Source: a virus. Taken from it: a stretch of 64,000 nt of DNA. Each line of letters begins with the position of its first letter. Position 1 is the first letter of the stretch. Below are positions 9,232-40,075 of the stretch, piece after piece. Location of the stretch: the IMG/VR virus record IMGVR_UViG_3300033978_000457, positions 36,126-100,125 of that record. One strand, given 5' to 3'. The translations under genes were made by a program, and so were the position numbers. The notes below the pieces were generated by a model, which was given only the letters and a program-made list of their open reading frames with translations, did no database searches and was not told where the DNA came from.

Positions 9232-9871
9232 TGATTTTATGTTTTTCCGTTAGGTAGCGCTTTACAAGCTCACTTCTAACTATATCTTCAACTCCAAACT
9301 CTACTACATCGAACAGGTCTGGCATTTTTTGAAGAATATTCATAAAAGGCTTTAAACCATTAGTTACTAAGTCGGCCTGCCCGGCGTCTCCGCTAAAAGC
9401 AATATTACAATTCTTACCAAGTCTAGTAATAATGGAGTCTAACTCGTGGAAGCTCATGTTTTGAAACTCGTCCACTATCAGAAAAGAATTTTCTGTGTTA
9501 ATTCCTCTTATGAATGAGGTTGATACGAACTCTACTTTTTTCTGTCTTTTAAGCATAGCATACGCGTCGTCTCTTTGGTATAGTTGCGATGCTAAATCCA
9601 TATAAGGTGCTTCATATACTTTAGTTTTATCTGAAGCCGATCCTGGTAGGAACCCTATATTTCTCGTAGGCACAGCGCTACGCATAATAATAACTTTTTC
9701 TTTCCGCTGGGCTTGTACTTCTACTAAGGCTCTATATAGAACTAGTAGAGTTTTTCCAGTGCCGGCAGCCCCATGGACTACTAAGTTTTTATTTGAGGCT
9801 AAAACCTCTTTTTGCCTTGGATTCAAGGCTTTAATGCGAGATAACTGTAAGTTACCATTTGGTGAACTCAT
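9116..9871 (-). CDS. phoH: PhoH-like ATPase
   Basis: 251 residues from MSSPNG. Walker A GAAGTGKTLL and Walker B FLIVDEFQNMS define the PhoH family, which is frequent in phages but of unsettled function (RNA helicase/ATPase activity has been proposed). Start fixed at ATG 9871 by the GGAAGAAA ribosome site five bases upstream. The final 39 codons are read across the signal-peptide region of the SleB gene in a different frame. Confidence 0.93.
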   Translation of the reverse strand: MSSPNGNLQLSRIKALNPRQKEVLASNKNLVVHGAAGTGKTLLVLYRALVEVQAQRKEKVIIMRSAVPTRNIGFLPGSASDKTKVYEAPYMDLASQLYQRDDAYAMLKRQKKVEFVSTSFIRGINTENSFLIVDEFQNMSFHELDSIITRLGKNCNIAFSGDAGQADLVTNGLKPFMNILQKMPDLFDVVEFGVEDIVRSELVKRYLTEKHKINENIKPDTPITVSGMLGDAKLCVCKRADSSSYSNGATV

Positions 9872-10362
9872 TATACTTTCTTCCGGGTTGGTTTTTCCCA
9901 TTCGTACATTATATTATATAACTTCCAAGGAAGGCCTTTATAATACAACATCTGGGCAAATGACCCGACTGGGGGTCTACTAACTAATACTGGAAAGTTT
10001 ATTCCTTCCAAAATTATCAACGAGTAGAAGTCTTTGTAGATAATATTGTCTATCTTGTGACAGACAAGTTCCTGCATCGACGTTCGTCTATAGTTAAATA
10101 CAGACCCTAGGTTATCTATGTACCAGGACTTGGTACTAGCGGTGTCTTTAATAAGCTCTATAACATCTCCGCGGTGTTTTGAGAGCCTATACATTGGGTG
10201 AGGGCTAAGTAGTCTTCTAGCCCCCAGGGTAGCTACGGAGATGTTTCTATCGTCTACTATATTCCCGCCTACAAAGGTTAAACCATCAACCGTTAGGGGT
10301 TCTTGGTCTACTTTCCAGACGGGATAGTTGACTTTATGCAGCGATCTTATCGTCCTCTCCAA
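9871..10362 (-). CDS. Conserved hypothetical protein, TTG start
   Basis: 163 residues when started at TTG 10362, which has AGGAG seven bases upstream inside the polymerase gene; no ATG suits the frame. No recognised motif; the C-terminus is basic (PTRKKV). It overlaps the DNA polymerase by 29 nt and its TAA shares a base with the phoH ATG, so the three genes are tightly coupled. A role in replication is suggested only by position. Confidence 0.7.
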   Translation of the reverse strand: MERTIRSLHKVNYPVWKVDQEPLTVDGLTFVGGNIVDDRNISVATLGARRLLSPHPMYRLSKHRGDVIELIKDTASTKSWYIDNLGSVFNYRRTSMQELVCHKIDNIIYKDFYSLIILEGINFPVLVSRPPVGSFAQMLYYKGLPWKLYNIMYEWEKPTRKKV

Positions 10363-12634
10363 AGAACTTCTCCTCAAATCCGCCTTCAGAATAGTCATCT
10401 GAAATACTGAATTCACATCCAATAGGCATACCTGGGATATTTAGTCCTCTGTCCATTTCGATCAATGCTTTTAGTTTTTTACAGTACTGATCAATGTGTT
10501 CGTCTTTAACTTCCGCAAGCACAGAGTCATGTACTAGAGCAAAGATGCTGGCGTCCAGTTTCTTTACTTCTATATATTCTTGCATTTCAATAGCTGCAAG
10601 AAGGTTAATGTCCGAAGAAGGAGACTGAATTAAGAAGTTAATACCAGAACGAACTTCGTGGGCAATAATGCCTTTGTTATCGCTGTTGATGTTTCTAAGA
10701 CGACGCTTACGGCCAAAGTGGCTGTAAATGAACCCGTCTGCTAGAATTCTTTCTTCTGACGTTTTTAGCCACTTCTTAAGTCGCTTAAACGTCTTGAAGT
10801 AATCGTCAATAGCTTCTTGGGCTTCTGACTTAGTGTAAATAGCTCCAGGGTCAGACTCTTGCATACCTTTAGTAACTGTAGCAGAAATCTTATTAGCGCC
10901 GGCACCATATAGAATACCGAACGAGATAGCCTTAGCAGCCTGACGTTCGCCGGGGAATAGTTTTTTTACATCTTCAACTTTACAAGGAAGATTAAACACT
11001 TTCTTAGCGATAGTAGAGTGGAAGTCCCCACCGCTGCGGAAGACGTCCATAAGCTCAGGGTCGCCGGATAGAACAGCCGCGATATACATCTCGGCTGTGG
11101 TCAAGTCCATTGATACAATCTTGTACCCTGGGCGAGCTTTGATACAGCCTTTAACCGCTGGATTATCCCGCGGCAACTGCTGCATGTTTAATTTTCCGGA
11201 GGAAGACAATCGTCCGCTTGTGGTGGAGTGTAGGTTGAAGCTTGTTCTAAGCTTGCTGTCTCTATCAAGTTCGGGGATGATTTTGTCAAGATAAGTGTTT
11301 TTAATCTTTCCCTGTTTTCGTATGGTGAGTATAAGAGCTGGTATCGGATGAGCTTCTGCGAGTTGTTCAAGGACTTCCGCATTTGTGGAATCCGCTCCAG
11401 TTCCCGTAAGAATTCCAGTTGGTTCAAGTCCGAGATAGTCAAAGAGTAATTTCCTTAATTGTTGAACAGAATTTGGGTTAAATTCGGCCGCTTGATCTCT
11501 CTCAAATTTCGCCACCTCAGGGTATGCCTTGAGCTTCTGTACCGCTTCATCAATTTCCTTTGTCATGGTCTTTTGGGCAAGCTTCAATCGCTCTATATCA
11601 AAAGGAACACCATTGTCTTGAATTTTAGTTAGGAACCTAGAGCCAGGAATGAGGATATTCTCATACATCTTCAGGAGTCTAGGATTGCGCTCAACAGCTC
11701 GACGGAACTTGTCATAGAGAAGAAACGTGACGCAAGCGTCGATGGATGCATAAGGCCACATGATATCGAAGGGGATTAGTCCGTAGTTGAAATCGCCCTT
11801 AAGGATGCCATGAGTTTTGCAGTAATCTGAAATAAACTGCCCTAGGGGTTCTTCGTAGTCCCCATAGTCTGTATATTTAAGCGCTAGCGATTTAAGGCCG
11901 TGGTTGCCAGGCTGCTCGTCTAGCGTATAATGCAGTAGCATGGTATCTTCGAAATTAGGGAAGAACCATCTAAAATGATAAGCAAACCAGCCCATATCGA
12001 ACTTGGCGTTATGAAACACAACAATCTTTGTGTTGAATATTTCGCGCAGTAGCGCATCTACTCGCTCGCTGATACAGTCTACATGAATATACGCGCCCGT
12101 GTTTGGCGCTGCCGAGATCGAAATACCGAGCACTTCCCCGTTTCGTGGGTACAGATCGCTGGTTTCAGAGTCAAGACCTATGTATTTGTAGGGCTGTTCT
12201 TTGCACCATAAAAGGTATTTGAAAGCTTCTGTCTCGTCTTGAATACCTTTAAAGTTCTCCATATTATACTTAGGAGCGGATTTACTACCGGTCACAAAAG
12301 CATTAATAGACTTTACAGAGTCTTCCCAAAGAGGTTTAGCCTCTGGCTTGAAAGCAAGCATAGAAGGGTTGATAGTAGGAATGAATTTATCATTCACTAC
12401 TTTACCAGAGTATTCTGTAACAGAACTTTTACCAGTGAAGAACTTGAATGGTTCTGACCCGATTAGGATCACCCAATCGTAGCCATCAGCGATAGAAGTT
12501 TCAATTACTACGTCCTTCTTAAGAACTTTCTTAAGGGTTGGGTCGTCAGTAAGAGATACCTTATCATAATCAAAACTAAACTGTCTATAGACAGTACTTG
12601 TAGGCTTTGTTTCTACTATTAGTACTCTGGCCAT
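10334..12634 (-). CDS. DNA polymerase, family A, with 3'-5' exonuclease domain
   Basis: 766 residues. Proofreading domain: IGLDSETSDLYP (Exo I, D/E), FHNAKFDMGWFAYH (Exo II) and YASIDACVTFLLYD (Exo III). Polymerase domain: motif A SMDLTTAEMYIA near residue 510, where the usual DYSQIELR is altered; motif B RQAAKAISFGILYGAG; motif C LVHDSVLAEV. The first 130 residues form an extra N-terminal domain. This is the replicative polymerase, corresponding to T5 D9. Confidence 0.96.
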   Translation of the reverse strand: MARVLIVETKPTSTVYRQFSFDYDKVSLTDDPTLKKVLKKDVVIETSIADGYDWVILIGSEPFKFFTGKSSVTEYSGKVVNDKFIPTINPSMLAFKPEAKPLWEDSVKSINAFVTGSKSAPKYNMENFKGIQDETEAFKYLLWCKEQPYKYIGLDSETSDLYPRNGEVLGISISAAPNTGAYIHVDCISERVDALLREIFNTKIVVFHNAKFDMGWFAYHFRWFFPNFEDTMLLHYTLDEQPGNHGLKSLALKYTDYGDYEEPLGQFISDYCKTHGILKGDFNYGLIPFDIMWPYASIDACVTFLLYDKFRRAVERNPRLLKMYENILIPGSRFLTKIQDNGVPFDIERLKLAQKTMTKEIDEAVQKLKAYPEVAKFERDQAAEFNPNSVQQLRKLLFDYLGLEPTGILTGTGADSTNAEVLEQLAEAHPIPALILTIRKQGKIKNTYLDKIIPELDRDSKLRTSFNLHSTTSGRLSSSGKLNMQQLPRDNPAVKGCIKARPGYKIVSMDLTTAEMYIAAVLSGDPELMDVFRSGGDFHSTIAKKVFNLPCKVEDVKKLFPGERQAAKAISFGILYGAGANKISATVTKGMQESDPGAIYTKSEAQEAIDDYFKTFKRLKKWLKTSEERILADGFIYSHFGRKRRLRNINSDNKGIIAHEVRSGINFLIQSPSSDINLLAAIEMQEYIEVKKLDASIFALVHDSVLAEVKDEHIDQYCKKLKALIEMDRGLNIPGMPIGCEFSISDDYSEGGFEEKFFGEDDKIAA

Positions 12635-13470
12635 TCTCTTGTTTTTAACTTTCTGATTTGTTCTTTTGTTAAGCTGCCGGGATCTGCACCCTCGTCGAAA
12701 TAGTTGGTTAACACTATGTTTTTAGTATTAAAACCCATTCCATCGGCTAGTGGTATTATTTTTTCTGCTGCGGCCTGCCCGGCCTCATCTCCGTCAAAAA
12801 GTACATGCAACTCATGTACTCCTAGCATTCTAAGCAGCCCAAGCTTATCCTCATTCATTGTCTGTGTACCAAATGCAGTCATAACAAAAGTTATACCGTT
12901 GTCGTACAATTTAAGCATATCAAATATGCCTTCTACTAGAACTATTGTACTAAACTTTGGTTTGTTAGTCATTGGGTACAAAGGAGCTTGTGCTCCTGGA
13001 GGATGTAGCTTATATTTTGGCTTAGCGAAAGCATCAAACGATCTTGCGGAGAAGTTTATGATTTTACCCGTAATATCGTAGATAGGGAACACTAGTCTAT
13101 TAGGGAAGTCTTCCTCGTATGTAAATGCTTTGAATCTTTTATATGTTGCAGCGGATATACCCCTATAATCATCCTCCCAGAATATTGCATCCTCTGGTAT
13201 CTGCAACCCAACTCTCTCTAGAGTTACCTGCTCGATTTTCTTTTTTAGGGTACTTCGTAGCATATCTAACTTGGATCTGTCTATTCCAAACTTAGCAAAT
13301 ATGTTGCCCCTATGTCCACAAGAAAAGCAATGAAAAATACCAGTAACCCGATCCATTCTCATGGACGGGTTACTGTCATCGTGTTCTGGGTTTAAACATT
13401 TAATAAGAAAATCCTTACCGCTAGGTATGAACGCTATCTTATGCTTTGTGAGTACGTCTTCTACATTCAT
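12619..13470 (-). CDS. DNA primase (zinc-finger and TOPRIM)
   Basis: 283 residues. N-terminal zinc-binding domain CLNPEHDDSNPSMRM followed by FHCFSCGHRG (Cys-His...Cys-x2-Cys), then a TOPRIM domain with VLVEGIFDML (catalytic Glu) and VLFDGDEAGQAAA (DGD). Works with the DnaB-like helicase, which is encoded just upstream. Started by the promoter at 13491-13519, with a GGAA site before ATG 13470. Confidence 0.93.
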   Translation of the reverse strand: MNVEDVLTKHKIAFIPSGKDFLIKCLNPEHDDSNPSMRMDRVTGIFHCFSCGHRGNIFAKFGIDRSKLDMLRSTLKKKIEQVTLERVGLQIPEDAIFWEDDYRGISAATYKRFKAFTYEEDFPNRLVFPIYDITGKIINFSARSFDAFAKPKYKLHPPGAQAPLYPMTNKPKFSTIVLVEGIFDMLKLYDNGITFVMTAFGTQTMNEDKLGLLRMLGVHELHVLFDGDEAGQAAAEKIIPLADGMGFNTKNIVLTNYFDEGADPGSLTKEQIRKLKTREWPEY

Positions 13471-13490
13471 AAGGAATTTCCATTTTTAGT

Positions 13491-13519
13491 AGTATAGCAT
13501 AAAGATTTACTGGTGTCAA
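13491..13519 (-). promoter_or_regulatory. Sigma70-like promoter for primase-polymerase unit
   Basis: -35 TTGACA (13514-13519), 17-bp spacer, -10 TATACT (13491-13496), preceded by the class-specific AAAAATAGTTC box, which overlaps the last codons of the helicase gene. Confidence 0.88.
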
Positions 13520-13522
13520 GAA

Positions 13523-14875
13523 CTATTTTTGCCACTTTCTATCTTCTGCTTCTTCTTTCTCTTCATCTTCCTCTTTAGCGGATACGGTGGCAGAGTCTGG
13601 GCCGATCTTAAGAGTATCCCAGTCCATGCTGGAAGTGAAGTTTGTCTCTGCATTTCTTCTGTCCTTAACACAAGTAAACGTCATAGCACAATCATCTTTC
13701 TGATGCGGGTCTAGCGTGAAGGCTGCGTCGGCCGGATCAAGAATACCCTTAGCAAATCTAGCTTCCCCAGTAGCATCTACCTGATAGGGGCAGACTACGG
13801 GTATACCAAACTTTTGAGCAATATCAGCCTTTAGAAAGTTAGCCACCTCAATCTGTTCGCCCCAATCAAAAGAACCTTTCTTAGATGGTATCTTTGAAAG
13901 CTTGATCTTATTGATGTAGTCGATAATAATTACAGCGGGTTTGATAAGAGGAACTTTACGCTCACATTCAGACCTAATTTTAGCTACAGTCATTTGAGGG
14001 TCATAAACGACTTCAAACCTTGCCTCTTTAAGAGGAAGGGTTATTAGTTTTTTATGAAATTCATCAAAAGAGATATTTAAACTGTAATGTTCTTTATAAA
14101 AATCTTCGCCCCCTTCATACCTAGAGGACCACCACTTAGCTACCCGTACAAGCTCATCTGAGGATAGAGTTCTATTACGAAGCCTATACGCGGACACATT
14201 TGCCCCGATAGAAGCAACACGTTGAATAATATCGCGCTGTTTCATCTCTATCGTAAAGTACATAGAAGATTTTTTCTCTGCCTGCATATTTGCCATGACA
14301 TTAGCGCAAACGAGAGACTTACCCGACCCTCTTCTACCGCCGATCATGATAAGATCCTCTGGCGTGTATTGGATTACGGAGTCAAATTCAGTATTTAACC
14401 CTAAAGGTATGTAACGAGATATAGTCTCTTGGGGCTCGAAAAGTTCTATCCTCTGCATAGTTTCTTGTTCTTCATCAAGATCGATCTTCTTCTCGATGCC
14501 TACAATGATATCTTGTAGTGCTTCAATAGTCTCGGTCGCACTTTCAAACGCTACGGAATTGTCTATAAGTTTCGTTACTCCCTCCAGCACTAGTCGCTGC
14601 GAGTAGTCATTTTTTAGAAACTCTAGTAGAATTGCGGCGTCGGTGTCAACTTCGACCTGCTCAACAATAGCTACTCTCTGAAGTAGCTGTTTGCTTTTTG
14701 CGTCGAACTTAAGCTCTTCGAAGGTAGGTAGTTTGTTAAACCTATCTACGAAAGAGGAAACTTTGTCATATAATGAAGAATATTCTGGAGTAAGATAGTT
14801 TTTTCTGAGAGAAGACCAAGTAGAAATATCTTGCTGGGTTAGTAGCTGCTTAAATAGAGCACTAGCAAGATCCAA
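13523..14875 (-). CDS. Replicative DNA helicase, DnaB-like
   Basis: 450 residues. N-terminal helical domain, then a RecA-like motor: Walker A GGRRGSGKSLVCANVM near residue 179, Walker B AVIIIDYINKI near 313, and CPYQVDATGEARFA as sensor loop. The C-terminus is very acidic (KEEDEEKEEAEDRK). It unwinds the fork ahead of the family A polymerase and interacts with the primase. Confidence 0.93.
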   Translation of the reverse strand: MDLASALFKQLLTQQDISTWSSLRKNYLTPEYSSLYDKVSSFVDRFNKLPTFEELKFDAKSKQLLQRVAIVEQVEVDTDAAILLEFLKNDYSQRLVLEGVTKLIDNSVAFESATETIEALQDIIVGIEKKIDLDEEQETMQRIELFEPQETISRYIPLGLNTEFDSVIQYTPEDLIMIGGRRGSGKSLVCANVMANMQAEKKSSMYFTIEMKQRDIIQRVASIGANVSAYRLRNRTLSSDELVRVAKWWSSRYEGGEDFYKEHYSLNISFDEFHKKLITLPLKEARFEVVYDPQMTVAKIRSECERKVPLIKPAVIIIDYINKIKLSKIPSKKGSFDWGEQIEVANFLKADIAQKFGIPVVCPYQVDATGEARFAKGILDPADAAFTLDPHQKDDCAMTFTCVKDRRNAETNFTSSMDWDTLKIGPDSATVSAKEEDEEKEEAEDRKWQK

Positions 14876-26788: not shown

Positions 26789-28564
26789 TTACGTTCCAAT
26801 CAGAGTTACTTTTAGCCCTTTTGCCGTGCCGTCACCAATTTGATCAACATCTATAGTAATTTCAGCATCGTCTGCTAATGATGTATCTGATATTACTGCT
26901 GCGGTAGCAGCAGTAGTTGAGGTTTTTTCTGTATTATCAATAGTTAGTTTAGTTGATAATATACTAGTGGCTTCTTCGTTGACATCTACTGTAAAAATAT
27001 TACCAGATGTTTGGGCTACGTTTAAATTTCCTCTAATACTTGTAAGTGTCATTGCAAAAGGCATACGGAAAGTAACTTTACTTGTACCTGCTGTAATTGC
27101 TGTAGTTTCATCACTAGCTGCAATTATGAGTATTTTAGAGTTTACAGGTCCTTGGGTGCCTTGCGCACCTGTAGTACCTTGAATGCTTGCTCCTGTAGTA
27201 CCTTGAATACCTTGAGTACCAATTATGCCTTGAATACCTTGACTACCAGCACCTGTAATGCCTTGAGTACCTTGCGCACCTGTAATACCCTGAATACCAG
27301 CACCTGCAGTGCCTTGAGTACCTTGAGTACCAGCACCTGCAATACCCTGAATACCTTGAGCACCTGCAGTGCCTTGAGTACCTTGACTACCAGCACCTGC
27401 AATACCCTGAATACCTTGAGTACCGGCACCTGTAATACCTTGAGTACCTTGAGTACCTTGAGTACCCGTGTTACCTGTTATACCTTGAGTACCTGTATTG
27501 CCTGTTGTACCCTGAGTACCTTGAGCACCAGTGTTACCTGTTGTACCCTGAGTACCAGTGTTACCAGTGTTACCTGTTGTACCCTGAGTACCTTGACGGC
27601 CTTGAATACCTTGAGCACCTTGGACACCTTGAGTACCCTGTGGACCTTGAGTGCCTTGTATACCTTGAGAACCAGTTATACCCTGAGTACCGGCACCTGT
27701 AATACCTTGAATACCTTGAGCACCCTGAGAACCAGTTATACCTTGAATACCTTGAGTACCAGCGCCTGTAGTGCCTTGAATACCTTGAGTACCTTGAATA
27801 CCTGTAATACCTTGACTACCAGCACCTGTAATACCTTGGGTGCCTTGAGTACCAGCGCCCATAGTACCTTGCATACCTTGGGAACCAGTTATGCCTTGAA
27901 TACCTTGAGAACCAGCACCTGTAGTGCCTTGAATACCTTGAGTACCTTGAATACCTGTAATACCTTGACTACCAGCACCTGTAATACCTTGGGTGCCTTG
28001 AGTACCAGCGCCCATAGTACCTTGCGTACCTTGGGAACCAGTTATGCCTTGAATACCTTGAGAACCAGCACCTGTAGCGCCCTGAGAACCTGTAGTGCCT
28101 TGACGGCCTTGAGTACCTTGACTACCAGCACCTGTAATACCTTGGGTGCCTTGAGTACCAGCGCCCATAGTACCTTGCGTACCTTGGAAACCAGTTATGC
28201 CTTGAATACCTTGAGAACCAGCACCTGTAATGCCTTGGGTACCTTGAGTACCTATGGTGCCTTGTGTACCTTGACGGCCTTGAGTGCCTTGAGTGCCTTG
28301 AATACCTTGAGTGCCTATAGTACCTTGGACACCGCTAGCGCCTTGAGTCCCTTCGACGCCTTGACTTCCTGTAGTACCTTGAGTACCGGCGCCTGTAGTA
28401 CCTTGAGTACCTTGTGCGCCGGCACCCCCACCTTGAATTCCTTGAATACCTTGACTTCCTGTTACACCATTTGCGCTCCATACAGTACCATTCCAAACGT
28501 ATCTAGTACCGTTTGGGGCAATATATTGATCATCTATGCTTGGAGAATTAGGAAAATTTATCAA
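26789..28564 (-). CDS. Collagen-like tail fibre protein
   Basis: 591 residues. N-terminal 35 residues carry the phage fibre motif GTRYVWNGTVW. Residues about 40-470 are Gly-X-Y triplets dominated by GTQ, GIQ and GAQ, e.g. [12 protein letters not shown]. The last 115 residues form a globular beta domain (KILIIAASDETTAITAGTSK). Such proteins form collagen triple helices with threonine and glutamine in place of hydroxyproline. A second collagen-like protein is at 31781-33532. Confidence 0.9.
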   Translation of the reverse strand: MINFPNSPSIDDQYIAPNGTRYVWNGTVWSANGVTGSQGIQGIQGGGAGAQGTQGTTGAGTQGTTGSQGVEGTQGASGVQGTIGTQGIQGTQGTQGRQGTQGTIGTQGTQGITGAGSQGIQGITGFQGTQGTMGAGTQGTQGITGAGSQGTQGRQGTTGSQGATGAGSQGIQGITGSQGTQGTMGAGTQGTQGITGAGSQGITGIQGTQGIQGTTGAGSQGIQGITGSQGMQGTMGAGTQGTQGITGAGSQGITGIQGTQGIQGTTGAGTQGIQGITGSQGAQGIQGITGAGTQGITGSQGIQGTQGPQGTQGVQGAQGIQGRQGTQGTTGNTGNTGTQGTTGNTGAQGTQGTTGNTGTQGITGNTGTQGTQGTQGITGAGTQGIQGIAGAGSQGTQGTAGAQGIQGIAGAGTQGTQGTAGAGIQGITGAQGTQGITGAGSQGIQGIIGTQGIQGTTGASIQGTTGAQGTQGPVNSKILIIAASDETTAITAGTSKVTFRMPFAMTLTSIRGNLNVAQTSGNIFTVDVNEEATSILSTKLTIDNTEKTSTTAATAAVISDTSLADDAEITIDVDQIGDGTAKGLKVTLIGT

Positions 28565-31780: not shown

Positions 31781-33532
31781 TTATGTCCCATCACTTATCG
31801 TTAAATCCACGATGTTGCCTAGAGCGTCTGTTTCCCACCACATCCAAATACCGGTAGCAACGGGTCTAGTTTGTTGTACGTAGACTTCTGTAGCTCCACC
31901 CGGACCCCCGCCGGAACCTGAGGGACCTTGTATGCCCTGTGTTCCTGCACCTGTACTACCTTGAATACCTGTAGCACCTTGAATACCTGTAGCACCTTGA
32001 ATGCCTGTAGCACCTTGTGACCCTGCGCCTGTAGTGCCTTGAGTGCCTTGAGTGCCAGTAGCACCTTGGGTGCCGGTAGCACCTTGGCTGCCGGCGCCTG
32101 TAGTACCTTGTATGCCCTGCGCTCCTTGTGATCCAACAGAACTAATTAGTACTGCAAGGTGAACATTATTAGCAAATCCTGTTGTTCCAACTCCTCCCGA
32201 AGAAAGCAGGGTAACAGGGTATGTAACATACGCGTTAGAAGTGTTGGCATTTACAACAGTTGGGTTACCAGAAAGTTGCCAACTTTGAAAATCAGCACTT
32301 TCAATTTTAGACTGTATTCTGAATTGGCTACCTGAGGTTAGTGCAGCTAGGATAAATTCTATATCAACGCCATCATCGTTGATGTGAAAAAAGTTAATTT
32401 GCGTAGCACTAGTTTGAGTCGCATTATTCCATAACAAGTGACCTGAAAGAGGCTGACCACTAGTAGTATTAGCATCGGCTCTATAGGTAAAGACGGATGT
32501 AGATCCGCCTAAGGAACCCTGAGTACCTGTAGCACCTTGTGTACCTATAATACCCTGGGTGCCCTGAGTACCCTGAGTACCTTGAATACCTATAGCGCCT
32601 TGAATACCTATAGCGCCTTGAGTGCCTGTAGTGCCTTGTGACCCTGCGCCTGTAGTACCTTGTATTCCTGTAGCGCCTTGAGTGCCTACAGCGCCTTGGG
32701 CTCCTGTATCACCTTGTGTGCCTTGGGCTCCTACGTCCCCTTGTGTGCCCTGGGCTCCTACGTCCCCTTGTGTGCCTGCGTCCCCTTGTATGCCTGTAGC
32801 GCCTTGCGCCCCTTCGCCTGTAGCGCCTTGAGTACCTATAGCACCTTGAGTACCTGTAGCACCTTGAGTACCTATAGCACCTTGTGTTCCTGCACCTGTA
32901 GTTCCTTGAGCTCCTGTAGCTCCTTGTATACCTGTACCTATAGCACCTTGAGTACCTGTAGCACCTTGTGTTCCTGCACCTGTGGTTCCTTGAGTTCCTG
33001 TAGCTCCTTGTATACCTGTACCTGTAGCACCTTGAGTACCTATAGCACCCTGCGTTCCTACGCCTGTAGTACCTTGAGCACCAGTAGTACCTTGAGTACC
33101 TGCTCCTATAGTGCCTTGGGTACCCTGAGCACCCTGAGCACCCTGAGAACCAGTTATACCTTGAATACCTTGAGTACCCGCACCTATAATACCTTGGGTA
33201 CCTTGAACACCAGTTATACCTTGAGTGCCTTGAGTACCCGCACCTATACTACCCTGGGTGCCTTGAGAGCCTAGTATACCTTGAGCACCTTGAGAGCCCG
33301 TTATGCCTTGAATACCTTGAGCTCCAGCACCTGTAGTGCCTTGGGTACCTTGGGTACCTACTGTTCCTAAAATACCGGCTGTACCTTGAGTACCTATAGT
33401 ACCTTGAGTACCCTGCACTCCCTGTATGCCAGGCACTCCCTGATCAACAGGCAAAGCTAGTTGTACTACAACTTCATTTTCTATTACTTCAAGTGTTATC
33501 GTTTGGCCAGGCACTAGTACATAGTTTGTCAC
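31781..33532 (-). CDS. Second collagen-like fibre protein
   Basis: 583 residues. N-terminal strand segment ([17 protein letters not shown]), a long Gly-X-Y region ([12 protein letters not shown]-type triplets), an interrupting globular beta domain at about residues 350-460 ([20 protein letters not shown]), a short second collagen stretch, then a C-terminal domain with [18 protein letters not shown], a motif shared with other phage tail-fibre tips. The two collagen proteins share triplet usage and may be paralogues. Confidence 0.88.
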
Positions 33533-39749: not shown

Positions 39750-40075
39750 ACGTCCAGAGTTTCTGTTTCTAGGCCTCTGTAACTCCCAATAAGGGTTACG
39801 CCGCTAAGCGCATGTCCTCAAATGCTACGTTGTCGTTTGCATTTAGTTGTTTTTGAACTTCTAACGGAGTTCATTCGAGTTGTCCACTATTTTACAACGC
39901 CAGTCGATCCTATGTCGCCCCCATCAAAAACATACCAACCCCTATCCGAGGCCCCACTGATAGTTGGGCTTAGCTCTAAGCTCTATCAGAAGCCGTCGAG
40001 TTACCGAGGTATGCTTTTGGTGGAGGCGCCGGGTACTGCCCCCGGGTGTTGCCGCCTTATCGTCGTTTCATACAA
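39750..40075 (-). ncRNA. ssrA: Circularly permuted (two-piece) tmRNA
   Basis: Gene order is acceptor piece, loop, coding piece. Acceptor piece (about 40075-40018): T-arm CCGGG-GGCAGTA-CCCGG, 3' strand CGCCTCC, A73, CCA ending at 40018. An intervening loop of about 95 nt (40017-39923) would be removed. The coding piece starts at 39922 with GGGGGCG, which pairs with the acceptor strand over 7 bp. The tag frame (39840-39796) reads ANDNVAFEDMRLAA then TAA. The 3' end of the coding piece is approximate. It would rescue stalled ribosomes and tag proteins for ClpXP. Confidence 0.93.

Follow-up and report, generated by a model that had tools for sequence, protein, structure and literature searches.

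The tmRNA locus and its phage

The minus strand of the window, i.e., the whole 64,000-nt stretch that was analysed (positions 36126-100125 of the linear 100,125-bp metagenomic contig IMGVR_UViG_3300033978_000457, given in the analysis as IMGVR_UViG_3300034021_000678, a record that may be incomplete), carries a complete permuted (two-piece) tmRNA, on which Rfam covariance models and ARAGORN agree. The alpha_tmRNA model (RF01849) matches at 40135-39751, minus strand, with 108.5 bits (E 1.1e-28) over its full length (1-355), above its curated gathering threshold of 50 bits. The tmRNA_permuted model likewise matches in full at 40077-39796 on the minus strand (97.2 bits, E 1.2e-17), and ARAGORN independently called tmRNA* c[39705,40110] with the tag ANDNVAFEDMRLAA. 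Because of these covariance-model E-values, a chance origin of the match is excluded. The first-pass annotation of this DNA had claimed that the phage encodes a permuted, alpha-subtype tmRNA with its acceptor piece ahead of the coding piece, a shared 7-bp acceptor helix and a readable tag ending in LAA before TAA, and had named an Infernal search with the Rfam alpha-tmRNA model as a check; the two covariance models, ARAGORN and direct reading bear all of this out, and its coordinates hold, with the addition that the strand, which it left unstated, is minus. The features of the locus are as follows.

40585-40076, minus: upstream co-directional ORF of 169 aa, an orphan
~40077-40018, minus: acceptor piece (Rfam, ARAGORN, cofold; mature 5' end putative), with the 5' arm of the inter-piece helix (AGUUGU), the T-arm (CCGGG-GGCAGUA-CCCGG), the acceptor 3' strand (CGCCUCC) and an encoded ACCA
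40017-39923, minus: intervening segment of 95 nt, bounded by CCA and G1
39922-39755, minus: coding piece (ARAGORN, Rfam, cofold), with G1 at 39922 and 39755 being the end of the 3' hairpin, not a mapped mature end; acceptor 5' strand GGGGGCG (G3 facing U70), D-loop region AUAGGAUCGAC, pre-resume segment, tag frame and 3' hairpin
39840-39796, minus: tag frame including the stop (codons 39840-39799; TAA 39798-39796)
39779-39755, minus: 3' hairpin CAGAG...AACAGAA...CUCUG, closing the coding piece and bearing the AACAGAA motif in its loop, as alpha tmRNAs do
39747-39718, minus: terminator-like hairpin of 9 bp with a 12-nt loop (UACCAGCCA...UGGCUGGUA, then an AU-rich tail; direct reading)
39696-39310, minus: downstream co-directional ORF of 128 aa with an Rz-like spanin match (phrog_739, E 4e-6)

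At the level of sequence the gene is complete, with every feature that defines a two-piece tmRNA. The order of acceptor piece, intervening segment and coding piece was found by ARAGORN, Rfam and direct reading; the 7-bp acceptor helix (GGGGGCG / CGCCUCC-ACCA) is complete and includes the AlaRS identity pair G3-U70 and the encoded CCA, and the gene also has the T-arm, the inter-piece helix and the 3' hairpin. The tag starts at the resume codon and ends in a hydrophobic residue, two alanines and a stop (GCA AAC GAC AAC GTA GCA TTT GAG GAC ATG CGC TTA GCG GCG TAA = ANDNVAFEDMRLAA*), so that the full tag would be A+ANDNVAFEDMRLAA when counting the alanine on the charged tmRNA. Of the phage and chromosomal sequences extracted, only 26 lack the AACAGAA loop motif. 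A cofold of the two pieces gives a 7-bp acceptor stem, a 5-bp T-stem and the 6-bp AGUUGU/ACAACU helix, with an energy that is by itself unexceptional (reached by 26 of 200 mononucleotide shuffles). The two pieces can thus pair as expected in the model, and processing into two base-paired RNAs is predicted, with the 95-nt segment presumably being cut out. This segment folds into one long hairpin that lengthens the acceptor stem (-31.2 kcal/mol, z -1.71); the full-length fold has a z of -2.61.

The phage itself is T5-like (a relative of the Demerecviridae, formal family membership not being implied), judging from its TerL (52% identity over 98% to T5-like phages), its DNA polymerase (49% identity over 96%), its size of ~100 kb and its many tRNAs (21 in the window by ARAGORN, besides the tmRNA). 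SmpB, ClpP and SspB gave no family match in the possibly incomplete record, so host partners would be needed. Environmental T5-like TerL relatives are very common (at least 598 confirmed in viral contigs), and most of the best 80 of these are ~67-70% identical to the window phage. Another T5-like contig, IMGVR_UViG_3300032088_000012 (TerL 69% identical), also carries a permuted tmRNA (95.2 bits), and the genes around it match in part: homologues of a PRA-PH-like ORF (window 42631) and a dGTP-diphosphohydrolase-like ORF (window 36968) flank the tmRNA in both contigs, with the former inverted in the relative and the other neighbourhood genes being different. Its tmRNA differs in having the short tag ANDSVYSLAA, the acceptor stem GGGGCUA/UAGCUCC and an alpha_tmRNA score of 44.7 bits, which is under the cut-off. 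The 169-aa upstream ORF had no family match and a homologue in none of the other viral contigs searched; homologues of the neighbouring 169-aa and 383-aa proteins were found only in the window's own contig.

Phage and chromosomal tmRNAs compared

The viral set was drawn with one degenerate coding-piece pattern, GGNNNYGANATRGGATCGAC, yielding 120 viral stretches, and the chromosomal set consisted of covariance-model matches from 385 genomes of the class Alphaproteobacteria and 58 genomes of the SAR11 order, the latter assigned from their SAM-V riboswitches. Since 83 of 150 chromosomal rows also match the viral pattern, it does not shut out host-like genes. The chromosomal rows listed come from the upper score range of the class search, so that weak-scoring chromosomal genes are under-sampled. 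For alignment, the intervening segment was taken out and the pieces were aligned.

Phage and chromosomal genes were found to differ in tag, spacer and score. Distinct tags of at least 13 aa make up 58/66 of the phage set vs 8/63 of the chromosomal set, and a large hydrophobic or aromatic residue stands at tag position -5 in 59/66 vs 32/63, counts that are not independent and for which p-values are indicative only, the tag rows being related. The intervening segment has a median of 91.5 nt in phages vs 28 nt in chromosomes, and the phage genes scanned at the cut-off score 57-142 bits with RF01849, whereas the main chromosomal matches listed score roughly 190-312 bits (some unlisted ones score lower). 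The window gene is typical of the phage set, with its 14-aa tag (...FEDMRLAA), 95-nt segment and 108.5 bits. Its tag keeps both ends, ANDN and LAA, around a centre (VAFEDMR) that the first-pass annotation proposed as a possible means of redirecting tagging and that is the normally variable part of such tags; the unusual trait is its length, which is common to most phage tags and not peculiar to this phage.

A tree of 261 rows is divided by a single branch (SH-aLRT 99): all 150 chromosomal rows fall to one side and the 110 phage rows to the other, joined there only by the second tmRNA of a Methylobacterium genome, which brings the phage side to 111 rows. Label shuffles required 83 changes on average, and none of 500 was as low as observed. 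With isolated phages added (118 phage vs 150 chromosomal rows) the split is still a single change (SH-aLRT 73), and careful trees of 143-144 rows need one or two. The tRNA-like end and inter-piece helix alone, which offer too few columns, give three changes instead of one, a caveat on the split; over all trees, the number ranges from 1 to 3 by the rows and columns used, with SH-aLRT of 73-99. In every tree the window tmRNA groups with phage tmRNAs, and no other row shares more than about two thirds identity with it. In the careful trees it falls within sets of 60 and of 63 rows that are all from phages (UFB/SH-aLRT 96/86 and 99/88). The AU test did not reject a placement in which the window row joins the basal branch on its chromosomal side (p 0.41). 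A betaproteobacterial outgroup (one sequence, branch 1.3) attached to the phage rows and did not root the tree, which, being unrooted, gives no direction, either phage from host or host from phage.

Structure is kept while sequence changes. Over 126 phage-type tmRNAs, the T-stem is paired in 97.6% of its cells, and its pairs 1 and 2 are each found as CG, TA, GC and AT, indicating that the structure is kept through compensating changes. Acceptor pairing and G3-U70 were used in extracting the sequences and are not independent evidence across the set; T-stem pairing was not so used. The last three tag codons vary synonymously among phage-type relatives with (L/I)AA kept.

Given the split of the tree, the longer phage tags and the longer spacer, it is therefore unlikely that the window gene is a recent host copy, and the phage alpha-type tmRNAs look like a family of their own, carried by phages, and not like genes recently taken from hosts. 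It has been reported that phage tmRNAs follow host lineages, with phage Melnitz excepted (PMC9004378); the larger sample used here sets the alpha-type tmRNAs of phages apart from every chromosomal one in it. A literature search found no paper stating this separation, which does not prove that none exists. A broader proposal is tentative and rather doubtful: that phage alpha-type two-piece tmRNAs form a long-lived phage lineage apart from the ssrA of all sampled Alphaproteobacteria, including SAR11, which might be common to unrelated phage families and have its own tag design (13-14 aa, ending in acidic - Tyr/Met/Phe - Ala/Arg - Leu/Ile-Ala-Ala) that would alter the handling of tagged proteins in infection.

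Known relatives and the host

The chromosomal two-piece tmRNA of the Caulobacter type (RF01849) shares with the window gene the piece order, G3-U70, T-loop, D-loop region, ANDN...AA tag and 3' hairpin, and differs in its higher covariance-model scores, tags of mostly 9-12 aa, median segment of 28 nt and position on the other side of the tree. The phage tmRNAs of the type found in mycobacteriophage Bxz1 and Bacillus phage G have the one-piece form and belong to a different lineage. Like the window gene, they are phage-encoded (PMC4131195). The window gene adds a member to a published class, because phage-borne two-piece tmRNAs have already been described, e.g., in Methylophilales phage Melnitz (PMC9004378). 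The ssrA of Melnitz (MZ577097) is likewise alpha-type and two-piece (RF01849 106.7 bits), with a 14-aa tag (ANDNYVPVDYALAA) and a long intervening segment; Melnitz differs in being a T4-like myophage of OM43 with a glutamine riboswitch after its tmRNA, a riboswitch that an Rfam scan did not find at the window tmRNA. In a 2021 phage database, 402 phages have tmRNAs and 53 of 133 unique structures are two-piece, 50 of these 53 being from marine or aquatic samples (PMC9004378); an expanded tmRNA database holds 79 bacteriophage sequences (PMC11915505).

Roseobacter and Rhodobacter phages, which belong to other families than the window phage, also carry alpha-type permuted tmRNAs with 14-aa tags, e.g., ANENFAPMEMRLAA. 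That of DSS3_MAL1 is annotated, whereas DSS3P8, vB_RpoS-V10, RcXuper, MD18, RcSimone-Hastad and RcRudolph have no tmRNA annotation; permuted tmRNAs were found unannotated in the isolated alphaproteobacterial phages DSS3P8, vB_RpoS-V10, RcXuper, Phosso and MD18. A DNA-level search for near relatives of the window gene returned only 40-nt matches to two Rhodobacter phages, and these matches are themselves unannotated tmRNAs. RcSimone-Hastad (MW677525; 1100-1513 of the extracted locus) and RcRudolph (OP009285; 1043-1457) have permuted tmRNAs with the tag ANDNVRMDAQALAA and no GenBank annotation, a hypothetical protein (RCRUDOLPH_61) being annotated across that of RcRudolph. The unannotated permuted tmRNA of jumbo phage Phosso (tag ANDNVSTKVALAA) was missed by ARAGORN. 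Directly upstream of the tmRNA of Roseobacter phage DSS3P8 lies a match to GOLLD RNA (150.7 bits against a cut-off of 150; 45-478 of the extracted locus). In addition, Methylobacterium sp. E-065 has a second tmRNA (10336-10789 of the extracted locus; tag ANDNVGMEMRLAA) beside its normal ssrA, which is the row that sits with phages in the main tree; the rows that lie nearest to it by path in the careful trees are of both kinds, chromosomal and phage. Nearby, one ORF has tail-fibre matches and another matches a phage transcription-regulator family, neighbours that are suggestive of a prophage without being proof.

The permuted form had also been taken to point to the host lineage, which holds only in part. 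Most isolates with such a tmRNA do infect Alphaproteobacteria, the hosts of those with the alpha type being Ruegeria, Rhodobacter, Phaeobacter, Sinorhizobium and Brevundimonas. However, Betaproteobacteria and Cyanobacteria have permuted tmRNAs as well. Pseudomonas phage PaMx31, whose record is partial and unverified, also carries one (beta_tmRNA 109.3 bits, tag ANDTSFDVRLAA; 740-1160 of the extracted locus); its recorded host, Pseudomonas aeruginosa, is expected to have a one-piece tmRNA. The alpha-type permuted tmRNA of Melnitz likewise belongs to a phage of a non-alphaproteobacterial host, OM43 (PMC9004378). Because the window tmRNA groups with phage and not chromosomal tmRNAs, it is not a direct fingerprint of its host, and host inference from the permuted type is weak; an alphaproteobacterial host is nevertheless likely. 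A search by exact 20-mer for the nearest chromosomal tmRNA gave 15 matches (Finniella-type MAGs, Methylobacterium, Phyllobacteriaceae and others), which were rejected as host evidence, not being close across the whole gene.

Probable function and its alternatives

The gene is probably a functional phage-encoded alpha-type two-piece tmRNA that adds to host tmRNA in infection and comes from a phage-borne lineage, not from a recent host copy. The integrity of the gene, the covariation in its relatives and its phage-side placement are established from the sequences compared; expression, processing, charging, tagging and benefit are predicted. The tmRNA would be transcribed together with phage genes, and tRNA-processing enzymes of the host would cut the intervening segment of its precursor. 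Host AlaRS would then charge the RNA via G3-U70, and host SmpB/EF-Tu would bring it to ribosomes that have stalled on broken or nonstop mRNAs. A+ANDNVAFEDMRLAA would be added there, with the LAA end directing the product to host ClpXP. The benefit may be that ribosome cycling is kept up while mRNA turnover is high in infection, on the assumption that host tmRNA becomes limiting. The tmRNA of the T5-like relative, with its other tag, was counted in favour of a functional gene, and the 108.5 bits, far below the chromosomal range though typical of phages, were counted against it.

The length of the phage tags makes altered tagging the main rival, i.e., the phage tag would change the fate of the proteins that bear it (ClpXP/ClpA handling that is adaptor-independent, quicker or slower), so that the gain would lie in proteolysis and not merely in rescue. 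The excess of long tags and of large residues at position -5 in phages fits this, as does the window tag itself, but that tag retains ANDN and (L/I)AA, the ends expected to make the adaptor and ClpX contacts, tag length could drift with lineage, and neither SspB nor ClpP was matched in the phage record; this explanation is given a modest share of belief. The other two are unlikely. A decoy function, in which the RNA would tie up SmpB or sit on stalled ribosomes and thereby inhibit host trans-translation, has a precedent in the role proposed for TLD-only phage tmRNAs, e.g., that of mycobacteriophage DS6A (PMC4131195), but an intact tag frame, stop codon and 3' hairpin in the window gene and relatives that keep the tag ends through synonymous change leave it little probability. 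Slighter still is the chance that a host ssrA was taken up by imprecise excision and is functionless in the phage: although tmRNA genes are often integration sites (PMC11915505) and such an origin was suggested for Melnitz (PMC9004378), the window gene is complete and not a 3' fragment, its structure covaries in phage-type relatives, it lies with phage tmRNAs in all trees, and the T5-like relative has a tmRNA too.

As a single gene, this is one more phage tmRNA, yet in a T5-like phage far from the literature examples found; greater weight falls on the comparison. If the two-piece tmRNAs of phages do form an independent lineage with longer tags, they would be phage genes with their own history instead of captured host housekeeping genes, it would become testable whether the phage tag changes proteolysis or only rescues ribosomes, and caution would be needed in inferring a phage's host from its tmRNA type.

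Several other genes were observed in passing. Long Gly-x-Gln-Gly (collagen-like) repeat proteins or tail-fibre matches lie at window positions 26789-28564 and 31781-33532 and at 9508-14670 of a second viral locus, with several copies within one phage. A 718-aa protein at 25346-23190 (minus) consists mostly of an EAARVAAEEA-type repeat and is perhaps a long charged helical rod. Lastly, the ORF at 54535-54077 (minus) matches S-adenosylmethionine decarboxylase (PF02675, E 2.5e-15).
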